From Geoalkalibacter halelectricus (lineage in GTDB: Bacteria; Desulfobacterota; Desulfuromonadia; Desulfuromonadales; Geoalkalibacteraceae), in assembly GCF_025263685.1 (NCBI RefSeq), contig NZ_CP092109.1:3721001-3785000 (forward strand): a stretch of DNA of 64,000 bases, given 5' to 3'. The notes under the pieces were generated by a model that saw nothing but the letters and a program-made list of their open reading frames with translations, made no database searches and was not told the origin of the DNA. A program made the position numbers and the translations under genes. Of the stretch, positions 3,234 to 15,279 are shown in pieces; position 1 is the stretch's first letter, and every line of letters starts with the position of its first letter.

Positions 3234-3571
3234 AATTTCCGCACCACTTCGCCTATTTCTTGCTGCAAGCTAAGGAGTCTATCAACCAATTCTGGTATAT
3301 TAAGACTACGGCCATAGCCTGATTTTGAATTATCAGAAAGCCACATTTTTAGCAGGCCACCGACGCGGCCTAAATCACCATGAAGGTGGGCAAGCTGGGC
3401 AACCGCCTGGGAATCAATAGTGCTTTTAGGCTCATAGCCTAAACCGACCTCGCGCAGATAAGTAGACAATCCAAGGTCGCACTGATTAGCCATTTCTGTT
3501 GCTCTTGCCAGCTCGTCTTCACTAAACCGGAGAGTAAGGCGGCAATTTCTAACTCGTGTTTCTGATCCCAT
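3230..3571 (-). CDS. traJ: TraJ-like oriT-recognition protein
   Basis: Relaxosome accessory protein that binds the oriT inverted repeat and recruits TraI. The chosen start is the ATG at 3571 (MGSETRV), preceded by GAGG six bases upstream. A GTG at 3610 would add 13 residues but has no visible ribosome site. The product is 113 residues (RP4 TraJ is 123) and has the family block HGDLGRVGGLLKMWLSD. The N-terminal part resembles a ribbon-helix-helix DNA-binding fold. The stop overlaps the traI start. Position beside oriT and family resemblance support the call. Confidence 0.87.
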   Translation of the reverse strand: MGSETRVRNCRLTLRFSEDELARATEMANQCDLGLSTYLREVGLGYEPKSTIDSQAVAQLAHLHGDLGRVGGLLKMWLSDNSKSGYGRSLNIPELVDRLLSLQQEIGEVVRKL

Positions 3572-3930
3572 TTCTAGCCTCGTTCTAAATATGACGTTGG
3601 GGTGTGCCACTAGCTGCGGCAGCAGCTCCCACCCTCGGAGAGCAGGAGAGCGTCGAGCCCGATAGGGCGAGTAAGTTACAGCATTCGGAACGGCCCCAGC
3701 TTGCTGGCGGTCTGACGAATGCCTATCCTGCCCCCGTCAACCTCTGCACATATAGTACACCATAGCGGCAGAATAGCGACATTCCAGGGAAAACCAGGGA
3801 TTGAACGCCAAAAAAGGCTTGATCTGTCGCTGATGTGTCGCTAATCTGTCCCTAGAGTGACGTTACAGGCTTGCAAAAGCCCTTTAGTGTCGCTATAGTG
3901 TCCCTAAAGTGTCGCTAGAGTGTCGTAATT
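3572..3930 (+). other. oriT: IncP-type origin of transfer (oriT)
   Basis: Non-coding space between divergent traJ and traK, where IncP plasmids keep oriT. The plus strand at 3724-3731 reads TATCCTGC, matching the P-type nic core YATCCTG|Y, so cleavage is predicted between 3730 and 3731. About 20 bases upstream an imperfect inverted repeat (CCAGCTTGCTGG, 3698-3709) could be the TraJ binding site. The nic assignment is by motif only; the sequence on the transferred side differs from RP4. Confidence 0.8.
3828..3928 (+). repeat. Phased TGTCGCTA-type repeats upstream of traK
   Basis: Two groups of short direct repeats. The first (3830-3866) has TGTCGCTGA, TGTCGCTAA and TGTCCCTAG. The second (3894-3927) has GTGTCGCTATA, GTGTCCCTAAA, GTGTCGCTAGA and GTGTCGTAATT, at an exact 11-bp step, about one helical turn. 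They lie between nic and traK. The likely reading is the binding array for TraK, which wraps oriT DNA in IncP plasmids and may also repress its own promoter here. Confidence 0.7.
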
Positions 3931-4302
3931 ATGAACCTGACTGATGAACTGAGAAAATCGCCCCCTCCCCGACAACGGGGCCAGGGCCGCCAGGCCTTCC
4001 TAGCCAGGCGAAGCGAGATTGAACAGGCAATCAGTGAAGGGTTTTCTTCCGCTGAGGTTTGGCAACATCTGCATGACAAAGGTGTGATGCCAATACAGTA
4101 CCGGCAGTTTGTCAGATATGTAGATCGCTACATTCTGAGCAAACAGTCAGAAGCAAAGCCCACCACTGAGCCAGAAGTAGCAACAAAGAAAGAAAGCGAG
4201 GTTAGCCCAAGGAAGACAAGCGAACCCATAAAGAAACCAGATGAAGTTAGTAGGCGATTTGAACACAACGCCAAAGGCAAATCTAAAGAAGACTTGATTT
4301 AA
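3931..4302 (+). CDS. traK: TraK-like oriT-binding protein
   Basis: Relaxosome protein thought to bend the DNA on the leading side of nic. The product is 123 residues, close to RP4 TraK (134). It has a basic N-terminus (PPPRQRGQGRQAFLARR), then a helical DNA-binding region with YRQFVRYVDRYI, then a very polar Lys/Glu-rich tail. It is the first gene of a traK-traL-traM operon pointing away from oriT, the IncP order. The repeat array ends a few bases before its start codon. Family call rests on context plus the RQGRQAFLARR-type block. Confidence 0.82.
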   Translation: MNLTDELRKSPPPRQRGQGRQAFLARRSEIEQAISEGFSSAEVWQHLHDKGVMPIQYRQFVRYVDRYILSKQSEAKPTTEPEVATKKESEVSPRKTSEPIKKPDEVSRRFEHNAKGKSKEDLI

Positions 4303-4318
4303 CTCGGAGATATACGCA

Positions 4319-5086
4319 ATGGCAAAAGCACATTTTACACTTCAAGGAAAAGGCGGCGTCGGTAAATCACTTGTTTCCGCTCTTATCGCCCAGCACCGGC
4401 ATGAAAATGGTATTCCGTTAATCTGCGTGGATACTGATCCAGTCAATGCCACCTTTGCCGGTTATACTGCTTTCGATGTTCAGCGCGTCGAACTTATGAA
4501 CGGAAACAAAATTGATGAATCAGAATTTGACCGACTCATGGAAATGATCGCGGAAAACCCAAATTCTGAAATTGTTATTGATAACGGCGCGTCGTCCTTT
4601 ATTCCTCTGTCCAGCTACTTGGTAGAGAACCAGGCTATTGAACTTCTGCAAAGCATGGGGCATCAGATTGTTGTCCATCCGGTAATCACTGGCGGCCAGG
4701 CGCTCATGGATACCCTGACGGGTTTTGACTCGCTGGCTAATCAATTCCCGGAAACTGCGGAAATCGTCGTATGGCTTAACCAGTATTTTGGCGATATTGC
4801 ACAAGATGGAAAAACCTTTGAGCAAATGAAGGTTTACCAAAATCACAAGTCTCGCGTGAATGGCATTATCACGATTGCAAAGCAATCGGATCTGTTCGGC
4901 CGGGACGTTAAAGCCATGCTGGAAGCTCGCCAGACGTTTGACCAGGCGATGAAGTCAGAAAACTATAACTTTATGTCGAAGAACCGACTTCGCATGATGA
5001 AACAGCACCTGTTTGAACAAATGGATCTTGTCCTGGGGCTGCCAGTTAAATCAGCCAAAAAGGAGAAAGCCACAAATGCCGATTGA
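4319..5086 (+). CDS. traL: TraL-like P-loop ATPase
   Basis: Cytoplasmic ParA/MinD-like NTPase of the IncP traKLM operon; its exact role in transfer is not settled. The 255-residue product has a deviant Walker A motif KGGVGKS at residues 11-17 and IVIDNGAS as the Walker B-like strand. RP4 TraL is 241 residues. A ribosome site (CGGAG) lies just before ATG 4319, 16 bases after the traK stop. The 3' end overlaps traM by 11 bases. Confidence 0.87.
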   Translation: MAKAHFTLQGKGGVGKSLVSALIAQHRHENGIPLICVDTDPVNATFAGYTAFDVQRVELMNGNKIDESEFDRLMEMIAENPNSEIVIDNGASSFIPLSSYLVENQAIELLQSMGHQIVVHPVITGGQALMDTLTGFDSLANQFPETAEIVVWLNQYFGDIAQDGKTFEQMKVYQNHKSRVNGIITIAKQSDLFGRDVKAMLEARQTFDQAMKSENYNFMSKNRLRMMKQHLFEQMDLVLGLPVKSAKKEKATNAD

Positions 5087-5513
5087 CCGGGATGCTGTTA
5101 TCCAGGCTGTTGTAAAACAGCATGGCATCCTGCTGGGCAAGGATGATCCTATCCTTGCCTTTCTGGCTGTCCATGATGTGATCCTGGGTGAATACACTAA
5201 GGAAATGACCGGCGCGGTTGAACAGCTCCAGGAACACCTGGAGCTTGTCACCGAACGCTATCACGGCCAATCTAAAGAATTGGCTGAAACAATCGTCGGA
5301 AAGGCGGTAACGCAGATCCGGCATGAAGGGAAGGAAATACAGGAAGGCCTGCGCGGGATGCTCGATGCTGAACGGCAGAAGCACCAGGCCGCCATGCAGG
5401 CGCTGGCGTCCCAAGCTGAACAGTCCAGCAAGCGGGCGCATTGGGCCATGTGGGCAGCCCTGGGCTTTTCTGTATTGTCCGTGATCGCTGCGGCCATCAT
5501 AGTGGCGGCATAG
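5076..5513 (+). CDS. traM: TraM-like membrane-anchored mobilisation protein
   Basis: Third gene of the traKLM set. The start is the ATG at 5076 (MPIDRDAV), with AGGAG at 5061-5065, inside the end of traL; an upstream in-frame ATG at 5013 lacks such a site. The product is 145 residues, the length of RP4 TraM. A soluble helical part (40-110, likely coiled coil) is followed by one C-terminal membrane helix (about 121-145), so it is probably a tail-anchored inner-membrane protein. Function in IncP transfer is only known as a helper of efficiency. Confidence 0.8.
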   Translation: MPIDRDAVIQAVVKQHGILLGKDDPILAFLAVHDVILGEYTKEMTGAVEQLQEHLELVTERYHGQSKELAETIVGKAVTQIRHEGKEIQEGLRGMLDAERQKHQAAMQALASQAEQSSKRAHWAMWAALGFSVLSVIAAAIIVAA

Positions 5514-5516
5514 AAA

Positions 5517-5532
5517 AGCCCGGCAAGCCGGG
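5517..5532 (+). terminator. GC stem-loop after traM
   Basis: GCCCGGC-AA-GCCGGGC directly after the traM stop. There is no T run after it, so it is either a weak terminator or an RNA-stabilising hairpin before the next small gene. Confidence 0.45.
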
Positions 5533-5546
5533 CGGGAGTGGACAAC

Positions 5547-5702
5547 ATGACGTTTCTAATCTGGCTCGTTCTGGCTCTGCCGGTGGGGTTTATCGCGGGG
5601 GCTCTAGGCATGGCCCTATGGCTGGCCTTCAAGCCCCTGGTGGTCACTGGGGTTCGTATTGGTATCCGATGGATTAGGGCCACCGTGACCGGCGGCCTTT
5701 GA
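5547..5702 (+). CDS. Small single-pass membrane protein, unknown
   Basis: A 51-residue frame (MTFLIWLVLALPVGFIAGAL at the start) downstream of traM, with GGGAG eight to ten bases before the ATG. It is almost entirely hydrophobic in residues 2-36, with a short basic tail (RIGIRWIRATVTGGL). Similar small hydrophobic proteins occur in plasmid transfer operons, but I cannot assign a family. It could be the last gene of the traKLM transcript or an independent small gene. Confidence 0.55.
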   Translation: MTFLIWLVLALPVGFIAGALGMALWLAFKPLVVTGVRIGIRWIRATVTGGL

Positions 5703-8319: not shown

Positions 8320-8910
8320 ACTGTCAAGCCCTCAACCTCAAAAAATAGGAAAAAATTACCTACAGGCGAATGCCTGGGCTGCCACTGAGCGGGAAGGATG
8401 CACCCGGCCCCTTCCTTTTGGCGTTAAAACCATTCCACTGATCTAGCAGGCGACGCGGTGGCTGAGGATTGGCCGCCAATGGTTCGGATGGCACCCTGGA
8501 GCCTCCAGAATGGCCGTAGCGCCGTTTTCTGGGTCTGAGTAGGGGGTTGGTAGGGGTTGGGCGCGTAGCGCCTTAAAACACCAAAAAAATAATAGGGTTG
8601 TCTTGTTGCTCTGCGGTCGCTCGTAAGGTGGTCAAAGGGCCGCTAGGCCCGTTCGCCGTTAGGCGATTGTCCACCGTGAGCGGGCCGCTAACTATAGGTA
8701 TTTCTATAGGAAAAAAACTATAGGAAGACACCTATAGGTTTAGGGGGGGTCTGATTATGCGTGGCGGGGGGGGTGTGATTAGGCGTGTATTCCCGGCTAG
8801 GGCCACCGAATCAACGCAAAGCGGCTTAACTTCGGCAAATTTTTGTTATCAATGAACGCTTCCCCTGGCCAGCCTGTGCTGACTCGGGGAGAGGTGTAAC
8901 TCTAAAGTCC
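8320..8910. other. Non-coding stretch with CTATAGG repeats
   Basis: About 590 bases with no convincing gene. It holds four CTATAGG/CCTATAGG copies (8692, 8704, 8718, 8731) at 12-14 base steps, an inverted repeat around GGGCCGCTAGGCCC (8637-8650), and a repeated TGATTAKGCGTG (8752 and 8776) with G runs. The layout resembles a control or replication region, but no known origin type is recognised. Confidence 0.4.
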
Positions 8911-8961: not shown

Positions 8962-9088
8962 CGGGTCAAGGAGCCTGACCCCGGCCGCCAATCTATCATG
9001 CAATCGCTCGGTGGTGGGAGAGGCATGCTCGGTGGTTATCGATTCGAGATCCGCTTTGTCGACCTTCTAAAATTTTCAGGAGTGATTC

Positions 9089-9334
9089 TTGACCCGGGAA
9101 AAAGACACCAGGCAGAGGGAAGAGGGGGTTGAGGTTCCTTATGAACGAATCAACCCGGAAACCCTGCGCAATCTGATCCAGGAATTCGTGAGCAGAGACG
9201 GCGCGGACTGGGGCGATGCCGGATGCAGCCTGGAGGATAAGGTCAATCAGGTGCTTGGCCAGTTGAAGGCCGGCAAGGCAAAGGTCGTGTTTGATCTGAA
9301 GACCGAAACGGCGAATATTGTCGTTCGGCCGTAG
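9089..9334 (+). CDS. YheU-like (UPF0270) small protein
   Basis: An 81-residue protein of a conserved family of unknown function. The block PETLRNLIQEFVSRDGADWGD followed by LEDKVNQVLGQLKAGKAKVVFDLKTETANIV matches the UPF0270 pattern (family length about 70-75). The start is TTG at 9089, with CAGGAG seven bases upstream; no ATG or GTG occurs in frame before the conserved part. Its place on a plasmid beside toxin-antitoxin genes is unusual for a housekeeping-type family. Confidence 0.75.
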   Translation: MTREKDTRQREEGVEVPYERINPETLRNLIQEFVSRDGADWGDAGCSLEDKVNQVLGQLKAGKAKVVFDLKTETANIVVRP

Positions 9335-9431
9335 TGGTTGTGGATGGGGGTGTTCTCTCTGGCAGGGAGGTGCGAACAGAATGCGATCCGAGGAGCAAGC
9401 CCTTGTCATCTCCTGTCAACTCTGCGATTTG

Positions 9432-9809
9432 TTAAGCAGCGTCATTAATCGTGTCATAAGGCTGAATGAGTATCTCCGCCGGAATGCCCAGACCTTTGTG
9501 GAGGTTGCGAATCATTTGCATGGTTAACGGCCGTTTTCGGTTCAAAACCTCGGAAACACGTGCCCGGCTGCCGATAAATGATTGAAGATCCCGCCGCGTA
9601 AGTCCACGGCTTTCCATGTGATAAAGAATGGCCTCGATTGGATCGGGCTTGGGAATGCTGTAGTGTTTTTCCTCGAAGGACTCGACCAAAGTAACAAGCA
9701 CCTCAAGCCGATCTCCTTCAGGAGTGTCGGGAGCGGCGTCAAACAACTTTTCGATCTCTTCAAGAGCGGCCTGATAGTCGGCATCGGTTTTTATAGGTTT
9801 GATTTCCAT
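9432..9809 (-). CDS. higA: HigA-type antitoxin
   Basis: A 125-residue antitoxin and autorepressor. The N-terminal half (IKTDADYQAALEEIEKLF) is the HigA signature and the C-terminal half is a helix-turn-helix (GLTRRDLQSFIGSRARVSEVLNRKRPL). It lies 12 bases after the partner toxin gene on the same strand, the toxin-first order typical of higBA. Confidence 0.92.
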   Translation of the reverse strand: MEIKPIKTDADYQAALEEIEKLFDAAPDTPEGDRLEVLVTLVESFEEKHYSIPKPDPIEAILYHMESRGLTRRDLQSFIGSRARVSEVLNRKRPLTMQMIRNLHKGLGIPAEILIQPYDTINDAA

Positions 9810-9821
9810 GGATTCCTCCTC

Positions 9822-10115
9822 TCAGATCGTTGTTGCGTCAATCTTGTCGTATTCCCGATGCGTGCCGACAAAACGGATATACAAGATGCCATGGACGTAC
9901 TGGACTGCGACGATGAGCCGGTAGTTGTTGCCTTTGATGTTGAAAACAACCCGGTTGTTGGCCAAGAAACTCGCGTTGCGATAGGCATTTTTTATGTCTG
10001 CCGGAGATTTCCACTCAGCATGCTTGACGTCGTCATACCATGCTTGCAGGGGCTGACGTGCATCCGGATGTCGGTTCCAAAATTCGCGGAGTGTTCTACG
10101 AGATATGACGCGCAT
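9822..10115 (-). CDS. higB: HigB-type mRNA interferase toxin
   Basis: RelE-fold ribosome-dependent RNase, kept in check by HigA. The start chosen is MRVISRRTLREFW (ATG 10115), the usual N-terminus; an in-frame start 42 bases earlier adds a non-conserved tail. Blocks HPDARQPLQAWYDDVKHAEW, NRVVFNIKGNNYRLIVAVQY and RFVGTHREYDKI are typical of the HigB_toxin family. 97 residues. Confidence 0.92.
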   Translation of the reverse strand: MRVISRRTLREFWNRHPDARQPLQAWYDDVKHAEWKSPADIKNAYRNASFLANNRVVFNIKGNNYRLIVAVQYVHGILYIRFVGTHREYDKIDATTI

Positions 10116-10265
10116 GGAGGAAGTATACTGCGCTCCCGTAATGGGAGCAAGTGCCAAATTTCAAGTAAGGTGATTTTTCTGCTAAAACCTAAGGCCGGGA
10201 AATTAGGTGTCTGGGAACGGCACTAAGTCTATAAAATACCCCCCAGGGGAACTGGGAGAAATCAT

Positions 10266-10574
10266 CTATCCAAGCCCGGCACCCAAAAGAAGCTGTCGCA
10301 GCTGCCGTTCCTCTTTCGTGACATGGACGATAAAGACCGAGTTGCCTTCGCGCCGGTAGAAAATGCGGCACGGCCTTACGTTCAGTTCGCGGTAAATCGA
10401 ATTGGGCAACTCGGAGGGGACATGCCCGGAATCTGGAAACCGCTCTAGGCGCTCGACGGTTGAGAATGTCTCCTTGATGAGGCGCGAAGCGGCCTGCGGC
10501 TTATCCAGGGCGATGTATTCGGCGATTTCGTCGAGTTGATCCAGCGCTGGGCTTGTCCAGACTATTTCAGCCAC
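10266..10574 (-). CDS. ParE/RelE-family toxin
   Basis: A 102-residue toxin starting MAEIVWTSPALDQLDEIAEY, with LERFPDSGHVPSELPN and the C-terminal CRIFYRREGNSVFIVHVTKEERQL strand pattern, typical of the plasmid-stabilisation ParE/RelE family. ParE members poison gyrase and RelE members cut mRNA; sequence alone does not decide. It overlaps the antitoxin gene by 13 bases. Confidence 0.9.
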   Translation of the reverse strand: MAEIVWTSPALDQLDEIAEYIALDKPQAASRLIKETFSTVERLERFPDSGHVPSELPNSIYRELNVRPCRIFYRREGNSVFIVHVTKEERQLRQLLLGAGLG

Positions 10575-10819
10575 TTGCGCATCTGCTCCTTGGCCTGGGC
10601 ATGAGAGGCCGTTCGGCCCTCCAAAATCGCCCTTTCTCCCTTGGACAGCCCTTCAAGCAGCGCCAGCCTGCGCTGCATGAACTCATAGTCCTCGACATCG
10701 ACAAGGTAGGCGGCGGGACGGCCGTGCTCCGTGATCAGAACCGCTTCCTTGCTTTGGTGCAGATCCGCAAGGATTCTCGTCGCTTGGCGCTTCAGGTTGG
10801 TAACCAGTTCGACTTTCAT
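10562..10819 (-). CDS. Phd/YefM-family antitoxin
   Basis: An 85-residue antitoxin. MKVELVTNLKRQATRILADL plus EAVLITEHGRPAAYLVDVEDYE is the Phd/YefM DNA-binding fold; the C-terminal third (EGRTASHAQAKEQMRKWLK) would clamp the toxin. It is the first gene of the pair, and a 12-bp-arm palindrome lies just upstream, as expected for autoregulation. Confidence 0.92.
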   Translation of the reverse strand: MKVELVTNLKRQATRILADLHQSKEAVLITEHGRPAAYLVDVEDYEFMQRRLALLEGLSKGERAILEGRTASHAQAKEQMRKWLK

Positions 10820-10832
10820 TGGATGGCTCCTT

Positions 10833-10866
10833 GTCCGATAGTGACACTATAGTATCACTATCGGAC
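10833..10866. promoter_or_regulatory. Perfect palindrome, antitoxin operator
   Basis: Arms GTCCGATAGTGA and TCACTATCGGAC are exact complements separated by ten bases. The site lies 14 bases upstream of the Phd-like start codon and covers the expected promoter. Likely operator of the toxin-antitoxin operon. Confidence 0.8.
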
Positions 10867-10970
10867 AGCCATATCTATGGGGACAGAACGGGGACAGAAC
10901 GGAGATAGAACATCTTATGAATTCATTACATGCCAAATAACGAAATTGCCCGGCCTGGGCCCGGTAACTT

Positions 10971-11045
10971 CAATGAACCGCCCGGTGCGGACCCGCATGC
11001 CGGGTGGTGTGGGGGTTGGGGGTTAAAAACCCCCGGCTACCCGAT
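10971..11045 (+). mobile_element. 3' remnant of a group II intron (domains V and VI)
   Basis: AACCGCCCGGTGCGG-ACCC-GCATGCCGGGTGGT folds as a group II domain V with an AACCGCC catalytic strand (CGC triad, as in class C). It is followed by a domain VI-like hairpin GGGGGTT-AAAA-ACCCCC and the terminal CTACCCGAT. No reverse-transcriptase frame lies upstream, so only the 3' end remains. The bases after the predicted splice end, TAGGGC, look like the second half of an attC core, the class C (attC-targeting) insertion context. Based on recalled family structure. Confidence 0.62.
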
Positions 11046-11057
11046 TAGGGCCAGTCG

Positions 11058-11357
11058 TCAACTATGGGCAGCCTCGGCGTGAAGTTTGATCCCAAGAGCT
11101 GAAACAACCTTGAGGATCGTGTCGAAGCCGGGAGTGCGCTCGCCCGAAAGGGCTTTGTAAAGGCTTTCACGAGACAGCCCGGCATCACGGGCGACTTGTG
11201 ACATTCCTTTGGCTCGGGCAATGTCGCCTAGCGCTTTGGCAACAAAGGCGGCATCTCCATTGGCTTCTTCAAGGCAGGCTTCAAGATAGGCCGCCATTTC
11301 CTCGGGAGTGCGGAGGTGCTCTGCGACATCGTAGCGGCTGGTTGCTGTCTTTTTCAT
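11058..11357 (-). CDS. HTH addiction-module antitoxin
   Basis: A 99-residue protein starting at ATG 11357 (MKKTATSRYDVAEHLRTPEE), with AGGAG upstream; an in-frame start 75 bases earlier falls inside the toxin gene. Residues 40-90 are an XRE-type helix-turn-helix (ARAKGMSQVARDAGLSRESLYKAL), the probable-addiction-module family pattern. It pairs with the RelE-like toxin 11 bases upstream. An attC-like core near its stop suggests it is an integron cassette. Confidence 0.9.
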   Translation of the reverse strand: MKKTATSRYDVAEHLRTPEEMAAYLEACLEEANGDAAFVAKALGDIARAKGMSQVARDAGLSRESLYKALSGERTPGFDTILKVVSALGIKLHAEAAHS

Positions 11358-11367
11358 GGTCGTTCTC

Positions 11368-11658
11368 CTACAGGTTGCGGGCGAGGCGCAGAGCGATCTT
11401 GATGTCTTTGTCTTGCGTGCCTTTGTCGCCACCGGCCAGCAAGATGATCAACTCGTTGCCACGCTTGATGAAATAAACCCGATATCCGGGGCCATAATCG
11501 ATCCGCATTTCCGAAACACCTTCGGCAACTGGCTTAACATCGCCCGGGTTGCCCGCCGCAAGCCGCTCGATCCTGACCAGGATGCGTGCCCTTGCGCGAA
11601 TATCCCGTAGGTTGTCGAGCCATTCGGCGAATTCGTCTGTTTTGCGGATTTCGATCAT
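11368..11658 (-). CDS. RelE/HigB-like toxin of an addiction module
   Basis: A 96-residue toxin of the phage-derived Gp49-like family: TDEFAEWLDNLRDIRARARI, then VKPVAEGVSEMRIDYGPGYR and VYFIKRGNELIILLAGGDKGTQ, which match well. It is followed by its antitoxin gene. The region upstream runs directly into the IS110-like element. Confidence 0.92.
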   Translation of the reverse strand: MIEIRKTDEFAEWLDNLRDIRARARILVRIERLAAGNPGDVKPVAEGVSEMRIDYGPGYRVYFIKRGNELIILLAGGDKGTQDKDIKIALRLARNL

Positions 11659-11852
11659 GGGAAAAGTGTAGCCTTCTGGCTACGAATTGTCAATCAGGGT
11701 GCCGGTGTCGGGAGGTTGGCCCTAGACATAATGGCTTATACGAAATAGAGATGACCTGTCTCCCTTCCGCACCGGGGATTACGGGGGTTGATCCCGCAGA
11801 GCCACCTGCTTAGCCTGAGAGCGTAAGCAACTCTGAGGAAAGGAGACAGGTC

Positions 11853-12962
11853 ATGTCAAAGTCTACCACGGCATTTGTCGGCCTTGACGTCCACAAGGAT
11901 TCGATTGACATCGCGGTTGCCGAAGCGGGCCGAAACGGTGAAGTCCGGCACCTGGGTACCATTGGCGGTGATCTCGTTTCTCTGGGCAAGGCGGTTCGCA
12001 AGCTTCGCTCCTGGTACTCCCGCTTGCATTTCGTTTATGAAGCCGGCCCCTGCGGGTACCAGGTCTATCGGTGCTTATCCGCACAGGGATTGGATTGCAC
12101 GGTAGTTTCCCCCTCGATGATCCCCAAGCGCTCCGGCGATCGGGTCAAGACCGATCGGCGCGATTGTCTGCAACTGGCGCGGCTGCACCGGGCCGGGGAG
12201 CTTTCGCCCATCTATGTGCCGGGCGCCGAGGATGAAGCCATCCGCGATTTGGTGCGCTCCCGGGAGGATGCACGCATTGCCGGCCACAAGGCACGTCAGC
12301 AGCTCAAGGCGCTGCTGCTGCGCAATGGCATCCGTTATGAAGGAAAAAGCTCCTGGACCGCCGCGCATCTGCGCTGGATCGCCAGGCTCAAGCTGCCGCT
12401 TGAGGCCCAGCAGATCGCCTTTCAGGAATATCTCGACACGGTGACGGCTGCCGCGGCGCGGGTGGAACGCATTACCGAAGAGATACGGCGCGCGGCCGCG
12501 TCTTGGCGCATGGCGCCTTTGGTGGAGGCTCTGCAGGCGCTTCGCGGCGTTCAGTTCATCGTGGCCGTGACGGTCGTGGCCGAGTTGGGGGATTTGACTC
12601 GCTTCGATAACCCGAGGGAGCTGTCGGCCTTTGTTGGCCTGGTCCCCAGCGAATATTCCAGCGGCCCCTCGGTCCGCCGCGGCGCGATCACCAAGACCGG
12701 AAACGTCCATGCCCGGCGGGTTCTGGTTGAGGCCGCCTGGCATTACCGGCAACCGGCCCGGGTGACCCCCATTTTGCGCCAGCGCCTGGAGAAGCTCGCG
12801 CCGGTCGTGCAGGAAATCGCCTGGAAGGCCCAGCTTCGGCTGTGCAACCGCTTTCGGCGCCTGACGGCTGTGGGCAAGTGCAGCCAAAAGGTGGTGACCG
12901 CCGTCGCCCGCGAACTGATCATGTTCATGTGGGCCATCGCCAGGGAGGTGAAACAGGCCTGA
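11853..12962 (+). CDS. IS110-family DEDD transposase
   Basis: A 369-residue recombinase that moves the element, probably guided by a bridge RNA. The N-terminal RuvC-like DEDD domain opens with FVGLDVHKDSIDIAVAE (first Asp), followed by FVYEAGPCGYQVYR and KTDRRDCLQLARL. The C-terminal transposase_20 domain has LRGVQFIVAVTVVAELGDL and the serine block FVGLVPSEYSSGPSVRRGAI. Length and both domains are intact, so it may be active. GGAAAGGAG lies seven bases before the start. Confidence 0.95.
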   Translation: MSKSTTAFVGLDVHKDSIDIAVAEAGRNGEVRHLGTIGGDLVSLGKAVRKLRSWYSRLHFVYEAGPCGYQVYRCLSAQGLDCTVVSPSMIPKRSGDRVKTDRRDCLQLARLHRAGELSPIYVPGAEDEAIRDLVRSREDARIAGHKARQQLKALLLRNGIRYEGKSSWTAAHLRWIARLKLPLEAQQIAFQEYLDTVTAAAARVERITEEIRRAAASWRMAPLVEALQALRGVQFIVAVTVVAELGDLTRFDNPRELSAFVGLVPSEYSSGPSVRRGAITKTGNVHARRVLVEAAWHYRQPARVTPILRQRLEKLAPVVQEIAWKAQLRLCNRFRRLTAVGKCSQKVVTAVARELIMFMWAIAREVKQA

Positions 12963-13231
12963 CGACATTCGACATCCCCCGGTGCATGGGGCAAGGCGCG
13001 GCCCTGGTCAGGAGAACCCTCGACAAGCGTTATGGGACCGGTCCAGTGCCGGAACGCCCGATCCTAGGGTGAGGCAGCTCCGCGACGAATAAGGGTCAGG
13101 TGGTAGCCAATCCACGAATATCAGCAGGATCAACCGTCGCCCAAGGCGGCCCCGTCTTGCCCCATGCCCGGAGGGATGCATCATAAAAGTCAAAGAACAT
13201 TCAAAGGGAGCAGTGCGCCCTCTTGACAGGG
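12963..13231 (+). ncRNA. Candidate bridge-RNA region of the IS110-like element
   Basis: About 270 non-coding bases between the transposase stop and the right subterminal repeat. In IS1111-type elements the non-coding end downstream of the gene encodes the structured bridge RNA that pairs with donor and target. The stretch has several local inverted repeats (for example GGGGCAAGGCG near 12987 against CGCCCAAGGCGGCCCC near 13137). Placement is by family knowledge; the RNA itself is not shown. Confidence 0.4.
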
Positions 13232-13242
13232 ATAAGCCATAT

Positions 13243-13314
13243 CAACGCTCCGCATAACCGGCTGGCAATGGAGCGCAGCGAAATTGCCAGTCCGAGTTGA
13301 TGCGGTTGTTAGGC
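13243..13314 (-). repeat. attC: Integron attC site, 3' core cut by the IS
   Basis: On the minus strand GCCTAAC (13314-13308, R'' core) starts two bases after the stop of the 13317-13922 gene. An imperfect hairpin follows: ACTGGCAAT pairs with ATTGCCAG around TTCGCTGCGCTCC, and the arm CCGCATCAACTCGG mirrors CCGGTTATGCGGAGCGTT. The expected GTTRRRY core at the far end becomes GCGTTGATATGGC, so the IS interrupts it. attC by structure and position. Confidence 0.78.
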
Positions 13315-13316
13315 AA

Positions 13317-13922
13317 TCAATTCATTCCGAGTAGTTTCTTGAACTTTTCGGTGAGCTTGAAGCCCTCCGGCCGCAAGAGCTTCTTTTCTCCGGTTGCTTT
13401 GTCGGTTATGACCAACCCTTGGCCATAAAAGCTCGTGATGTCAAACCAAAACTCCCTCGTGAATCGCACCATCTTCTCTTGTCGTTTCCTCTCGTGCGCT
13501 TCGCCGTCGAATTCCGGGTGGCCGTAGCCTTGAGACCCCTCAAGCTCAGCCTTCAACTCCTCCCAGTCCTTTTCTGGGAATGCGGCGATCTCGAAAACGA
13601 GCTTGTCGAAGACCCTCTCTCCTTCATGAACTGTGCTCTGCTGCTGAAGCTCCCACCTGATACCGGAGAATTTCTCGCCCTCTGGACGAAAGATGATCAT
13701 TTCCTCGTATATCCGCTTTTCCACGAAAACATACTCCACGCCAACTCCGTCAAATGGTAATGACGGATCAACGAGGGGATCATTCTTATCAATGACGCAT
13801 GCATCTTCCTGCGAGTACCCCCACCCGCCACGGATGGGAAGGCCGCAACGCAGCGACTTGAAGTCTGTCGCAAGGATCTCTCTCGGCGATTCTTTGCTCT
13901 TGATCGGGTAGGGAGGTTGCAT
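13317..13922 (-). CDS. Integron cassette gene, unknown function
   Basis: A 201-residue protein, start ATG 13922, with AGGAG upstream and a complete attC core GTTAGGC just before that. It is rich in aromatic and charged residues (GVGVEYVFVEKRIYEEMIIF, WFDITSFYGQGLVITDKAT), has no signal peptide or membrane segment, and looks soluble and globular. I recognise no family. Being bracketed by attC sites and carrying its own compact reading frame, it is a typical integron cassette protein. Confidence 0.75.
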   Translation of the reverse strand: MQPPYPIKSKESPREILATDFKSLRCGLPIRGGWGYSQEDACVIDKNDPLVDPSLPFDGVGVEYVFVEKRIYEEMIIFRPEGEKFSGIRWELQQQSTVHEGERVFDKLVFEIAAFPEKDWEELKAELEGSQGYGHPEFDGEAHERKRQEKMVRFTREFWFDITSFYGQGLVITDKATGEKKLLRPEGFKLTEKFKKLLGMN

Positions 13923-13934
13923 ATTGGGTCTCCT

Positions 13935-14025
13935 GCCTAACGTTTGGCATAAGCAGACCGCGCCAATGAAGGTGCAAATAATTTCGGCAACGTTCTCGCG
14001 GTCTGCTTAATGCCTTAGTTATGCC
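13935..14025 (-). repeat. attC: Intact integron attC site
   Basis: About 90 bases. On the plus strand GCCTAAC (13935-13941) and GTTATGC (14018-14024) are the cores. AAGCAGACCGCG (13951-13962) is the exact complement of CGCGGTCTGCTT (13997-14008), leaving a loop of about 34 bases. The minus-strand reading ends GTTAGGC right before the next cassette's ribosome site. This is the canonical folded attC layout. Confidence 0.85.
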
Positions 14026-14091
14026 AAGTTGTTTTTATTCTTACGCTCCCACAACACACTTGCAAGCTAAGCTGTTTTTTTCTTGGACAAA

Positions 14092-14757
14092 CTATGAAAG
14101 AAAAGAATAGTCACTTGTAAATGACTTCCCGTTTATTCCGTCAGTGCCAGGAACCTGCACAAGCAACCCGCTGCCTCTATTGACAACATTAAACTTAAGT
14201 TGCCCCTTAGACTCGCTCATTTCTCTGCCGTATTTCTCGAAGAATTTTTCAGGAAGAGGAATGTCTATAACTTCTCCGTTTTCGCGTTGGCATAAAAGCA
14301 CGGCATGATCAAAACCACCAGCTGGCAAACCAAGAAACCAACGATTTGGCTGCCTTTCCGTTGCAACAGCTAGGCCGACCCGTTTACCTGACCTGGTGCG
14401 AAATATTGTCTTTCCTTTAATTAACTGGAGGTGAATACCTTCTGCTTCACGTTTTCTTAAAAACTCACTTCGAATTTGTTCTCCAAGCTCTCTTGAGGAA
14501 ACCATCTGCGCCGATCTAGATTCGCCCACAGGTGTGGCCGCAATACGCCGAATTTTTAGTTGTGCAGTTTGTGGAGTGCCACTTCTCAACCCGTCAAGTT
14601 CTGACCTGATTTGTTTCTGGCGAGAAATAAGATTTTCAATTTTTTCTAATCTTTCACTTTCCGCTAAGACTGTGTCGGCTTTCCCCTCGCCAGCAGCTTT
14701 GGAAATAGCTGATAATATTTTGTTTTTCTCGTTTTGAAGCTCAGTCAGCGTGCCCAT
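14092..14757 (-). CDS. Hypothetical protein, probable cassette gene
   Basis: A 221-residue protein, AT-richer than its neighbours. Residues 5-55 form a likely coiled coil (LQNEKNKILSAISKAAGEGK ... LEKIENLISRQKQIRSELDG). The C-terminal half (90-220) looks globular with beta strands (SGKRVGLAVATERQPNRWFL, GLPAGGFDHAVLLCQRENGE). No known family. An attC lies 67 bases after its stop, so it is probably the preceding cassette of the array. AGGAGG lies about eight bases before the ATG. Confidence 0.65.
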   Translation of the reverse strand: MGTLTELQNEKNKILSAISKAAGEGKADTVLAESERLEKIENLISRQKQIRSELDGLRSGTPQTAQLKIRRIAATPVGESRSAQMVSSRELGEQIRSEFLRKREAEGIHLQLIKGKTIFRTRSGKRVGLAVATERQPNRWFLGLPAGGFDHAVLLCQRENGEVIDIPLPEKFFEKYGREMSESKGQLKFNVVNRGSGLLVQVPGTDGINGKSFTSDYSFLS

Positions 14758-14802
14758 GTGATAACCTCCTGAGTTTATTGTTTTGTTTTCTACAACCCAG
14801 AA

Positions 14803-14830
14803 ACTATTACAAGTGCAAGTGTAGTGTCAA
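14803..14830 (-). promoter_or_regulatory. Candidate promoter for the 14092-14757 gene
   Basis: Minus-strand TTGACA at 14830-14825, then ATAGTT after 17 bases (or TAATAG after 15), about 50 bases before the start codon. The -35 is perfect and the -10 weak. Most cassette genes lack their own promoter, so this would be useful to the gene. Confidence 0.4.
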
Positions 14831-15279
14831 GTGTATTTTTTCTTTGAGGCATAACATAGAGTAGATTTGCGAAGAGCCGTGTTACAACGCGTCCCTGTTT
14901 TTTGTGAACGTGAAATTCCTGATATAATTCAGATGGTTGCCTTTGGTTGCTCCAACTTCCATTTTGGGCTTATCTCGTTTGAACCACGAGCAATTTTGTC
15001 GGGTTTTTGCTGCCCGCCAGTCGATTGGCGGCGAAAGGCGAAAAAGCAGAAATCGCGGCGGTTACGTGAAAAACCAAAAAAGGCCGCCCAGGGAAAAAAC
15101 CCGGTGCGGCCTTTCTAAATAAAATCCTCTGACGGCAATGATCTTCAACATCATGCCAACCCTCGTAAAAAGCAATTCACGCCAGCAAAATGCTGCCAAT
15201 AATCGGAACATTAACGAAAGTAGGAGTGAGTATCAAGGAAAAAGGAGGGGTAGACGGAAAACGAGGGCAGGGTTAACCC
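14831..15279. other. Intergenic region with a terminator
   Basis: About 450 bases between the cassette gene and the 15280 gene. A frame at 14867-15118 has no ribosome site and a basic, low-complexity end, so I do not call it. The only clear element is the stem-loop at 15079-15114. The base composition changes here from AT-rich cassette DNA towards GC-rich transfer DNA. Confidence 0.5.
15079..15114. terminator. Bidirectional rho-independent terminator
   Basis: AAAGGCCGC (15079-15087) pairs with GCGGCCTTT (15106-15114), with an inner CCAGGG/CCCGG stem. A run on the left and TTT on the right would let it act in both directions. Confidence 0.75.

Follow-up and report, generated by a model that had tools for sequence, protein, structure and literature searches.

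The DNA analysed here, called the window below, comprises 64,000 nucleotides of Geoalkalibacter halelectricus (bases 3,721,001-3,785,000 of a genome assembled as one contig of 4,125,859 bases). It harbors a short integron cassette array in which two recombination sites are interrupted, one by an IS1111-type insertion sequence (IS) and the other by the 3' end of a group IIC-attC intron. Read along the minus strand, the order is attI, cassette A, attC1, cassette B, attC2, the IS, cassette C, the R'' part of attC3 and the intron end. The features are outlined below in window positions; a vertical bar within a motif marks an insertion point or junction.

About 14853-14895 (limits approximate), minus strand: attI with the conserved CCGTGTTACAAC block; its GTT (AAC on the plus strand, 14853-14855) joins cassette A
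13939-14852, minus strand: cassette A, with the open reading frame (ORF) 14092-14757 and attC1; its start ATGCC is complementary to its own R'' GGCAT
13935-14024, minus strand: attC1, intact, with R'' GCATAAC, R' GTTAGGC and a 13-bp perfect arm
13244-13938, minus strand: cassette B, with the ORF 13317-13922 and attC2 up to GTT; its start AGGCA is complementary to R'' TGCCT
13244-13314, minus strand: attC2, split after GTT by the IS; model match at 13240-13314
11724-13243, plus strand: IS1111-type insertion sequence, 1,520 bp, uninterrupted, ends set by comparison with relatives
11853-12962, plus strand: DEDD transposase of the IS, 369 aa, uninterrupted
13025-13035, plus strand: predicted seekRNA guide 1, AAGCGTTATGG, in which AGCGTTA is complementary to the attC core T|AACGCT
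13060-13068, plus strand: predicted seekRNA guide 2, GATCCTAGG, in which CCTA equals the target CCT|A and would therefore pair with the other strand
11046-11723, minus strand: cassette C, with toxin, antitoxin and the R'' of attC3; its start AGGGCCA is complementary to R'' TGGCCCT
11693-11665, minus strand: promoter-like site of cassette C, 10 of 12 consensus bases (shuffles average 0.2)
11368-11658, minus strand: cassette C toxin, HI1419/RelE-like
11058-11357, minus strand: cassette C antitoxin, HI1420
11046-11054, minus strand: remaining part (R'') of attC3, interrupted by the intron end
10945-11045, plus strand: group IIC-attC intron 3' end of about 101 nt, with the last codons of the intron-encoded protein (IEP) and its stop, domain V and domain VI

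Cassettes and attC sites

In integrons each cassette opens, immediately after GTT, with bases complementary to its own R''. This border rule was satisfied in all three cassettes, with contiguous complementary runs of 5, 5 and 7 bases counted to the first mismatch, and the cassettes are bounded by attC sites and share a single orientation. The attC sites and the border rule thereby bear out the first-pass annotation, which had placed a cassette array on the minus strand. The ORFs of cassettes A and B encode 221 and 201 aa, respectively, and neither protein gave a Pfam match above cut-off; for cassette A, a tblastn search of plasmids gave no match. Relatives of the cassette B protein are encoded 20 kb past the window (52%, G000:C1 3804510-3804992; loci L165/L166 examined) and in the genome G036 (41%), where the relative stands ahead of a frame read by eye as a type I modification subunit.

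For cassette C the families HI1419 and HI1420 were found, as expected from the addiction module that had been proposed at 11058-11658. A relative of this cassette occurs in the related genome G005 (L160; 77% identity over 551 bp, 93% for the antitoxin protein), about 27 kb from an intact intI and in a stretch with several attC-like sites. The G005 cassette is followed by an intact attC which, judged by eye, obeys the border rule, and this arrangement should correspond to the state of cassette C before the arrival of the intron.

An attC covariance model was trained on ten G005 sites, chosen by eye among the 25 hits that the scan gave in three loci. With default filters attC2 was the sole match in the window (51.5 bits, E 1e-10), and it was also the sole match at E<=0.05 in the 4.1-Mb genome, for which 150 of 1,948 first-look candidates were scored. 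According to our reading of the alignment, its two extrahelical bases fall on the single unpaired positions of the model. For attC1 22.4 bits were obtained with filters off (E 2e-4 in 4.1 kb), and no match was obtained with default filters in 64 kb. The covariance-model check that had been proposed succeeded clearly for attC2 and only with filters off for attC1. In the arm scan, attC2 rejoined across the IS was comparable to attC1 (20.5 and 21.5; threshold 14), while the average over 100 shuffles was 0.33 hits per strand, with a maximum of 2. Furthermore, the single-strand DNA folds of both sites were more stable than those of shuffles (z -3.3 to -3.8; attC1 -3.8/-3.6). The intact attC1, previously given as 13935-14025, is placed here at 13935-14024. 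A first scan with strict arms had found attC1, missed attC2, whose R' is split, and listed one more place in the window (8330-8429); it gave no attC in L013, L014 and L019. Beyond the window the model matched in six of eleven further loci searched, namely L155, L046, L074, L013 and the plasmids L009 (37.1 bits) and L011 (26.3 bits), which carry resistance cassettes or class 1 integron genes; L019, L014, L072, L154 and L158 gave no match.

attI and the lost integrase

The attI, which is absent from the first-pass account of the array, was recognized by its conserved block. In G005 (L153) the same block lies about 120 bp upstream of an intI ORF of 332 aa (TIGR02249, 503 bits), and it recurs at three further loci: in G001 (L154), at a second place in G005 (L155) and at 3.513 Mb of the own genome (L001). 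The last of these was spotted by eye, having been missed by the search, and in our reading it is followed by the first intI codons alone. A secondary (attG-type) site had been considered for the first cassette and was replaced by attI after the comparison with G005.

At E<=0.001 TIGR02249 matched 14 times in the own genome, never over the family cut-off. At E<=1e-60 the own genome has no match, versus 58 of 136 genomes of the order. The best match is a C-terminal remnant at 3.513 Mb, a 63-aa stretch of 115 bits, about 219 kb from the array. The earlier statement that no integrase is in view is supported. Since an intact integron has the same attI block and the genome yielded no intI match at that level, the array represents the rest of an integron; judged from its sequence, the locus is a decayed integron that has kept attI and lost intI.

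The IS1111-type element and its predicted guides

The transposase matched DEDD_Tnp_IS110 and Transposase_20 in Pfam and the IS110 equivalog NF033542 in NCBIfam (242 bits, cut-off 140). The sub-terminal inverted repeats agree at 10 of 14 positions, and the non-coding parts measure 281 nt after the ORF versus 129 nt before it. A longer non-coding part after the transposase gene is described for the IS1111 family (PMC11187229; this and the other papers are cited from excerpts of their text). The IS lies in one copy at GTT|AGGGCC in the R' arm of attC2, and its rejoined flanks, GGCCCT|AACGCTCC, restore an attC core. Transposase families, sub-terminal repeats and junction thus corroborate the proposal that an IS110-family element of the IS1111 type breaks attC2 exactly in its 3' core. 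The genome holds a single full copy; a 125-bp fragment of the left part, 84% identical, was noted elsewhere in the chromosome (L019, 7140-7263).

For comparison, the window element was aligned with 79 loci taken from the best 80 of 116 relatives, giving 80 rows, and the ends were resolved in 52 of them, the window included. Right flanks beginning with AACG occur in 29 of these 52. In an alignment of 32 elements, a variable segment in the non-coding ends mirrors each element's own target. Guide 1 shares at least 6 contiguous complementary bases with the own target in 41 of the 52 rows, or in 15 of 23 distinct guides. Summed over the 23 distinct guides, the own pairings reach 115, whereas 20,000 permutations average 15.7 and never exceed 63; for the second guide and the left flank (20 distinct segments) the sum of 64 compares with a permuted average of 40.9 and a highest value of 60. 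These alignment columns replaced an earlier extraction by text anchors, which had worked for 29 of 52 rows and had given at least 6 bases in 17 of 27 distinct pairs. Sequence match and covariation together indicate a putative RNA guide matching its target, as in IS1111 elements, and we infer that it is processed and active as a seekRNA.

The group IIC-attC intron end

Beyond cassette C the array breaks off at CCCGAT|TAGGGCC, where the intron end is inserted in the orientation opposite to the cassettes. In a 5-kb scan its domains V-VI (10976-11045) matched Rfam RF00029 with 44 bits versus a gathering score of 40. The gathering scan of the whole 64 kb did not list them, nor did such a scan list the known short intron end in L158; a regular-expression search for domain V returned nothing. 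The stretch from 10972 on, together with the first bases of the 3' exon, has matches in 513 plasmid records, with intron-end identities of 85.4-92.5% in 25 plasmid records among the matches listed. Some of these plasmid places are annotated ltrA and stand beside resistance cassettes or class 1 integron genes. All eleven intron ends compared read CCCGAT followed by T, the first base of the 3' exon; of one set of fetched intron-end loci this comparison included L109, L110, L117 and L121 and left out L111, L112, L113, L115, L116, L118, L119, L120, L122 and L123. Junction and opposite orientation are consistent with the published TTGT/T site in R'' (PMC7923331). RF00029, the plasmid likeness and the junction agree with the earlier description of a class C intron 3' end in half an attC core (TAGGGC) after the addiction module. 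The window copy begins in the last IEP codons and has no reverse transcriptase, no domains I-IV and no 5' exon (TTGT side); it is a fragment of a IIC-attC member, unable to move by itself.

Two ideas on this junction were abandoned. A defined 5' end common to the window piece and the L019 copy was discarded, L019 continuing into the IEP (KELWVKIHCPATAR, then stop) where the window copy stops. A cassette swap by IntI at the intron/core junction was rejected by reasoning, because an inserted cassette would carry a whole attC and only R'' is present.

Another group II intron is represented in the genome by seven 3' ends of about 110 bp (last codons, domains V and VI), which are 99-100% identical and have differing flanks. 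They lie at G000:C1 1737600-1737831 (two copies), 2031650, 2299440, 3251651, 3625214 and 4118992; an eighth place at 4078806 follows the only reverse-transcriptase match (4077618-4078652) by 154 nt, and all these places make up L022-L029. Of the seven, five share their first base, which lies about 30 nt ahead of domain V, and two extend 11-12 bases more; the window intron end begins at a similar distance from domain V.

Interpretation and alternatives

Taken together, we are confident, short of certainty, that the locus is a small remnant of an integron, carried by a conjugative element that is integrated in the chromosome, and that two unrelated parasites each used a site-specific route of their own to enter attC sites next to each other. 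The anatomy, the insertion points, the guide/target match, the attI and the absence of an intI match can be read from the sequence itself. The history would then involve an integron with attI and three minus-strand cassettes that lost intI. The IS would have been inserted by its transposase together with an RNA guide from the 3' non-coding region reading the attC core T|AACGCT, landing between GTT and AGGGCC in the R' arm of attC2. The IIC-attC intron would have reverse-spliced into the R'' core (TTGT/T type) of attC3, on the strand opposite to the cassette genes, and its 3' end remains. As there is no complete attC at either border of cassette C and no integrase in the genome, this cassette, with its own promoter-like site, should be fixed in place, and the present state is likely that of a fixed addiction module on a conjugative element. 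The cassette cluster as a landing pad, which the first-pass annotation had suggested, would fit two independent site-specific insertions; the invasions may have been either selected for or tolerated.

Several observations weigh against this picture. The scores of attC1 in the attC model are weak, and the arm scan behind the training sites listed 6 hits on one strand and 5 on the other of a 16-kb G005 piece, compared with 2.85 per strand in shuffles, so that single G005 hits are no proof. Searches for cassette B gave no relative having an intact attC, and its plasmid search was empty. The rest of attC3 (L'', loop, L' and R') was not found upstream of the intron end; the insertion there is therefore read from R'' and 3' exon, and part of the locus must have been lost or replaced. 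With regard to the IS, 28 of the 80 rows, themselves drawn from the best 80 of 116 relatives, were dropped because their ends were not found. A 6-base guide/target match is missing in 11 of the 52 rows and in 8 of the 23 distinct guides, including one that is an alignment gap; the guide columns were picked after viewing the alignment of 32 elements, and the predicted guide RNA stretch folds no better than shuffles (z 0.52).

The most radical alternative denies any integron ancestry: attC-like hairpins, toxin-antitoxin genes and remnants of mobile elements would lie together here by chance. Conjugative elements commonly carry toxin-antitoxin genes, and the window, with no integrase, a weakly scoring attC1 and two cassette genes without known family, would suit such a view. 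It is nevertheless extremely improbable, given the attI block homologue beside an intact intI, the border rule in three of three cassettes, attC2 as the sole genome match of the model at E<=0.05 and the relative of the toxin-antitoxin cassette within an integron array. A narrower objection concerns the specificity of the IS, whose guide might read a broader motif and have struck attC2 incidentally. Many relatives have an AACG target, for example ten resolved copies in Vibrionales SWAT-3 (flanks unscored for attC), L072 gave no match to the attC model, and one full copy in the genome provides no second site for comparison. However, the match between guide and attC core spans the insertion point, L046 and L074 share this core and have model-scored attC sites elsewhere on their contigs, and L066 has an attC at the very edge of the IS (25.6 bits, filters off); we consider an incidental hit quite unlikely.

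More room is left for a different history of the intron piece, which might have been joined to cassette C later by recombination between intron copies instead of being inserted in place. The missing remainder of attC3 speaks for such a joining, as does L019, which combines the same left flank and intron end (91-94% identical) with a different cassette. On the other hand, 3' exon and orientation are those of a direct IIC-attC insertion, and intron ends in other genomes are equally similar (93-96%), so that the shared end dates nothing. Later joining appears unlikely, and insertion in place into attC3 is retained as the preferred reading.

Chromosomal paralogue

Four segments of the window (9053-9379, 10262-10878, 10945-11046 and 15069-15246) have counterparts with 91-94% identity in L019, a locus at 3.392-3.395 Mb of this genome in which the intron end adjoins a cassette different from cassette C. 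A 217-bp stretch beside the L019 cassette is common to the 3.513-Mb locus and, in our reading, includes the intI end. From this identity the conjugative element probably carries a copy of the chromosomal integron locus in which the cassettes differ. The difference could have arisen by recombination between intron copies; the end common to both loci gives no date for the event. IIC-attC introns have been proposed to join genes and attC sites by homologous recombination (PMC7923331), a role which would leave shared flanks and an intron 3' end with different cassettes, as in the two loci. We only tentatively entertain, and on balance doubt, the more specific scenario in which the intron end acted as a homology bridge between the conjugative element and the chromosomal integron remnant, with different cassettes beyond, and was then sealed by an attC-specific IS.

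Nineteen loci have an AAC-type IS target. In one of them (L066) an Rfam scan of the stretch that was fetched, a scan poor at finding short intron ends, detected a group II intron. L066, a contig of a metagenome-assembled Pseudomonadales genome, carries an IS1111-type element at an attC core (L066 1146-2812, and about 3480-5560 for IS and intron). Its group II intron has a reverse transcriptase, lies beside an apparent attC arm of the neighbouring cassette and has the same orientation as the cassettes.

Relation to known systems

The IS and the intron are each of a known kind. As in the IS1111-attC group (ISKpn4, ISPst6, ISPa25; ISPa21), the window IS combines an IS110-family transposase with sub-terminal inverted repeats and insertion at one attC end, and it has two guide segments for both target strands, the top-strand match coming first (PMC11187229). 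Set against the named elements by description, it is a separate member with the core T|AACGCT. With group IIC-attC introns the piece shares the 3' end sequence, the R'' insertion at TTGT/T and the orientation opposite to cassettes (PMC7923331), and it differs in being reduced to the last ~101 nt, without reverse transcriptase, domains I-IV and 5' exon. The comparison with these excerpts agrees with the earlier remark that IS1111-attC elements and class C introns target attC, the insertion points included.

The closest intron parallel is UHB.F1 from the soda lake Tanatar-5, which is likewise 5'-truncated, located in a cassette array and opposite to the cassettes; unlike in the window, no IS1111-type IS in a neighbouring attC is reported in the excerpts of PMC7923331. 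Toxin-antitoxin systems are abundant in the arrays of that study. For the IS, ISPa21 in the attC of blaGES-5 integrons provides an IS1111-group element that interrupts attC and might immobilise cassettes (PMC11616780); those are resistance integrons, and the term 'group II intron' does not appear in the article. Clusters of attC sites without integrase (CALIN) resemble the array in having no intI in the genome, whereas the window array keeps attI, which points to a decayed integron as its origin.

The literature was searched for both parasites in one array, and the excerpts nowhere described the two together in adjacent attC sites: PMC9229058 describes introns in attC and detected no IS interrupting attC in its analysis, PMC5034289 places neither IS nor intron in attC, and in PMC11089894 and PMC12444791 the IS1111 group is named or cited but an intron is not. 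The side-by-side pair with a readable RNA guide is the informative part. It offers a natural case of one cassette that lost both recombination sites to parasites of unrelated chemistry, RNA-guided DNA transposition and retrohoming, each reading a different attC arm, and it outlines a route to the possible fixation of an addiction cassette on such a conjugative element. Furthermore, the 23 distinct guides with their targets from public genomes (15 matching at least 6 bases) provide a test of the seekRNA model that is independent of the published elements.

The conjugative element

Around the array the window encodes a MobA/VirD2-type relaxase with TraI-like domains, KfrA and the F-type secretion proteins TraG, TraN, TraC and TrbI, and a traJ-II RNA was found at 3631-3733 in the 64-kb Rfam scan. 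The first-pass annotation had assigned the array to a conjugative plasmid. The conjugation genes are real; since they sit in the chromosomal contig, the array belongs, in the current assembly, to a conjugative element inside the chromosome and not to a free plasmid. Three consecutive toxin-antitoxin modules occupy the minus strand at 9432-11658 (HigB with a helix-turn-helix (HTH) gene, ParE/Phd and HI1419/HI1420), among which HI1419/HI1420 is the one with demonstrated cassette status. About 9 kb before the window, a tyrosine-recombinase-like frame (G000:C1:3711527-3711955) is possibly the integrase of the conjugative element.

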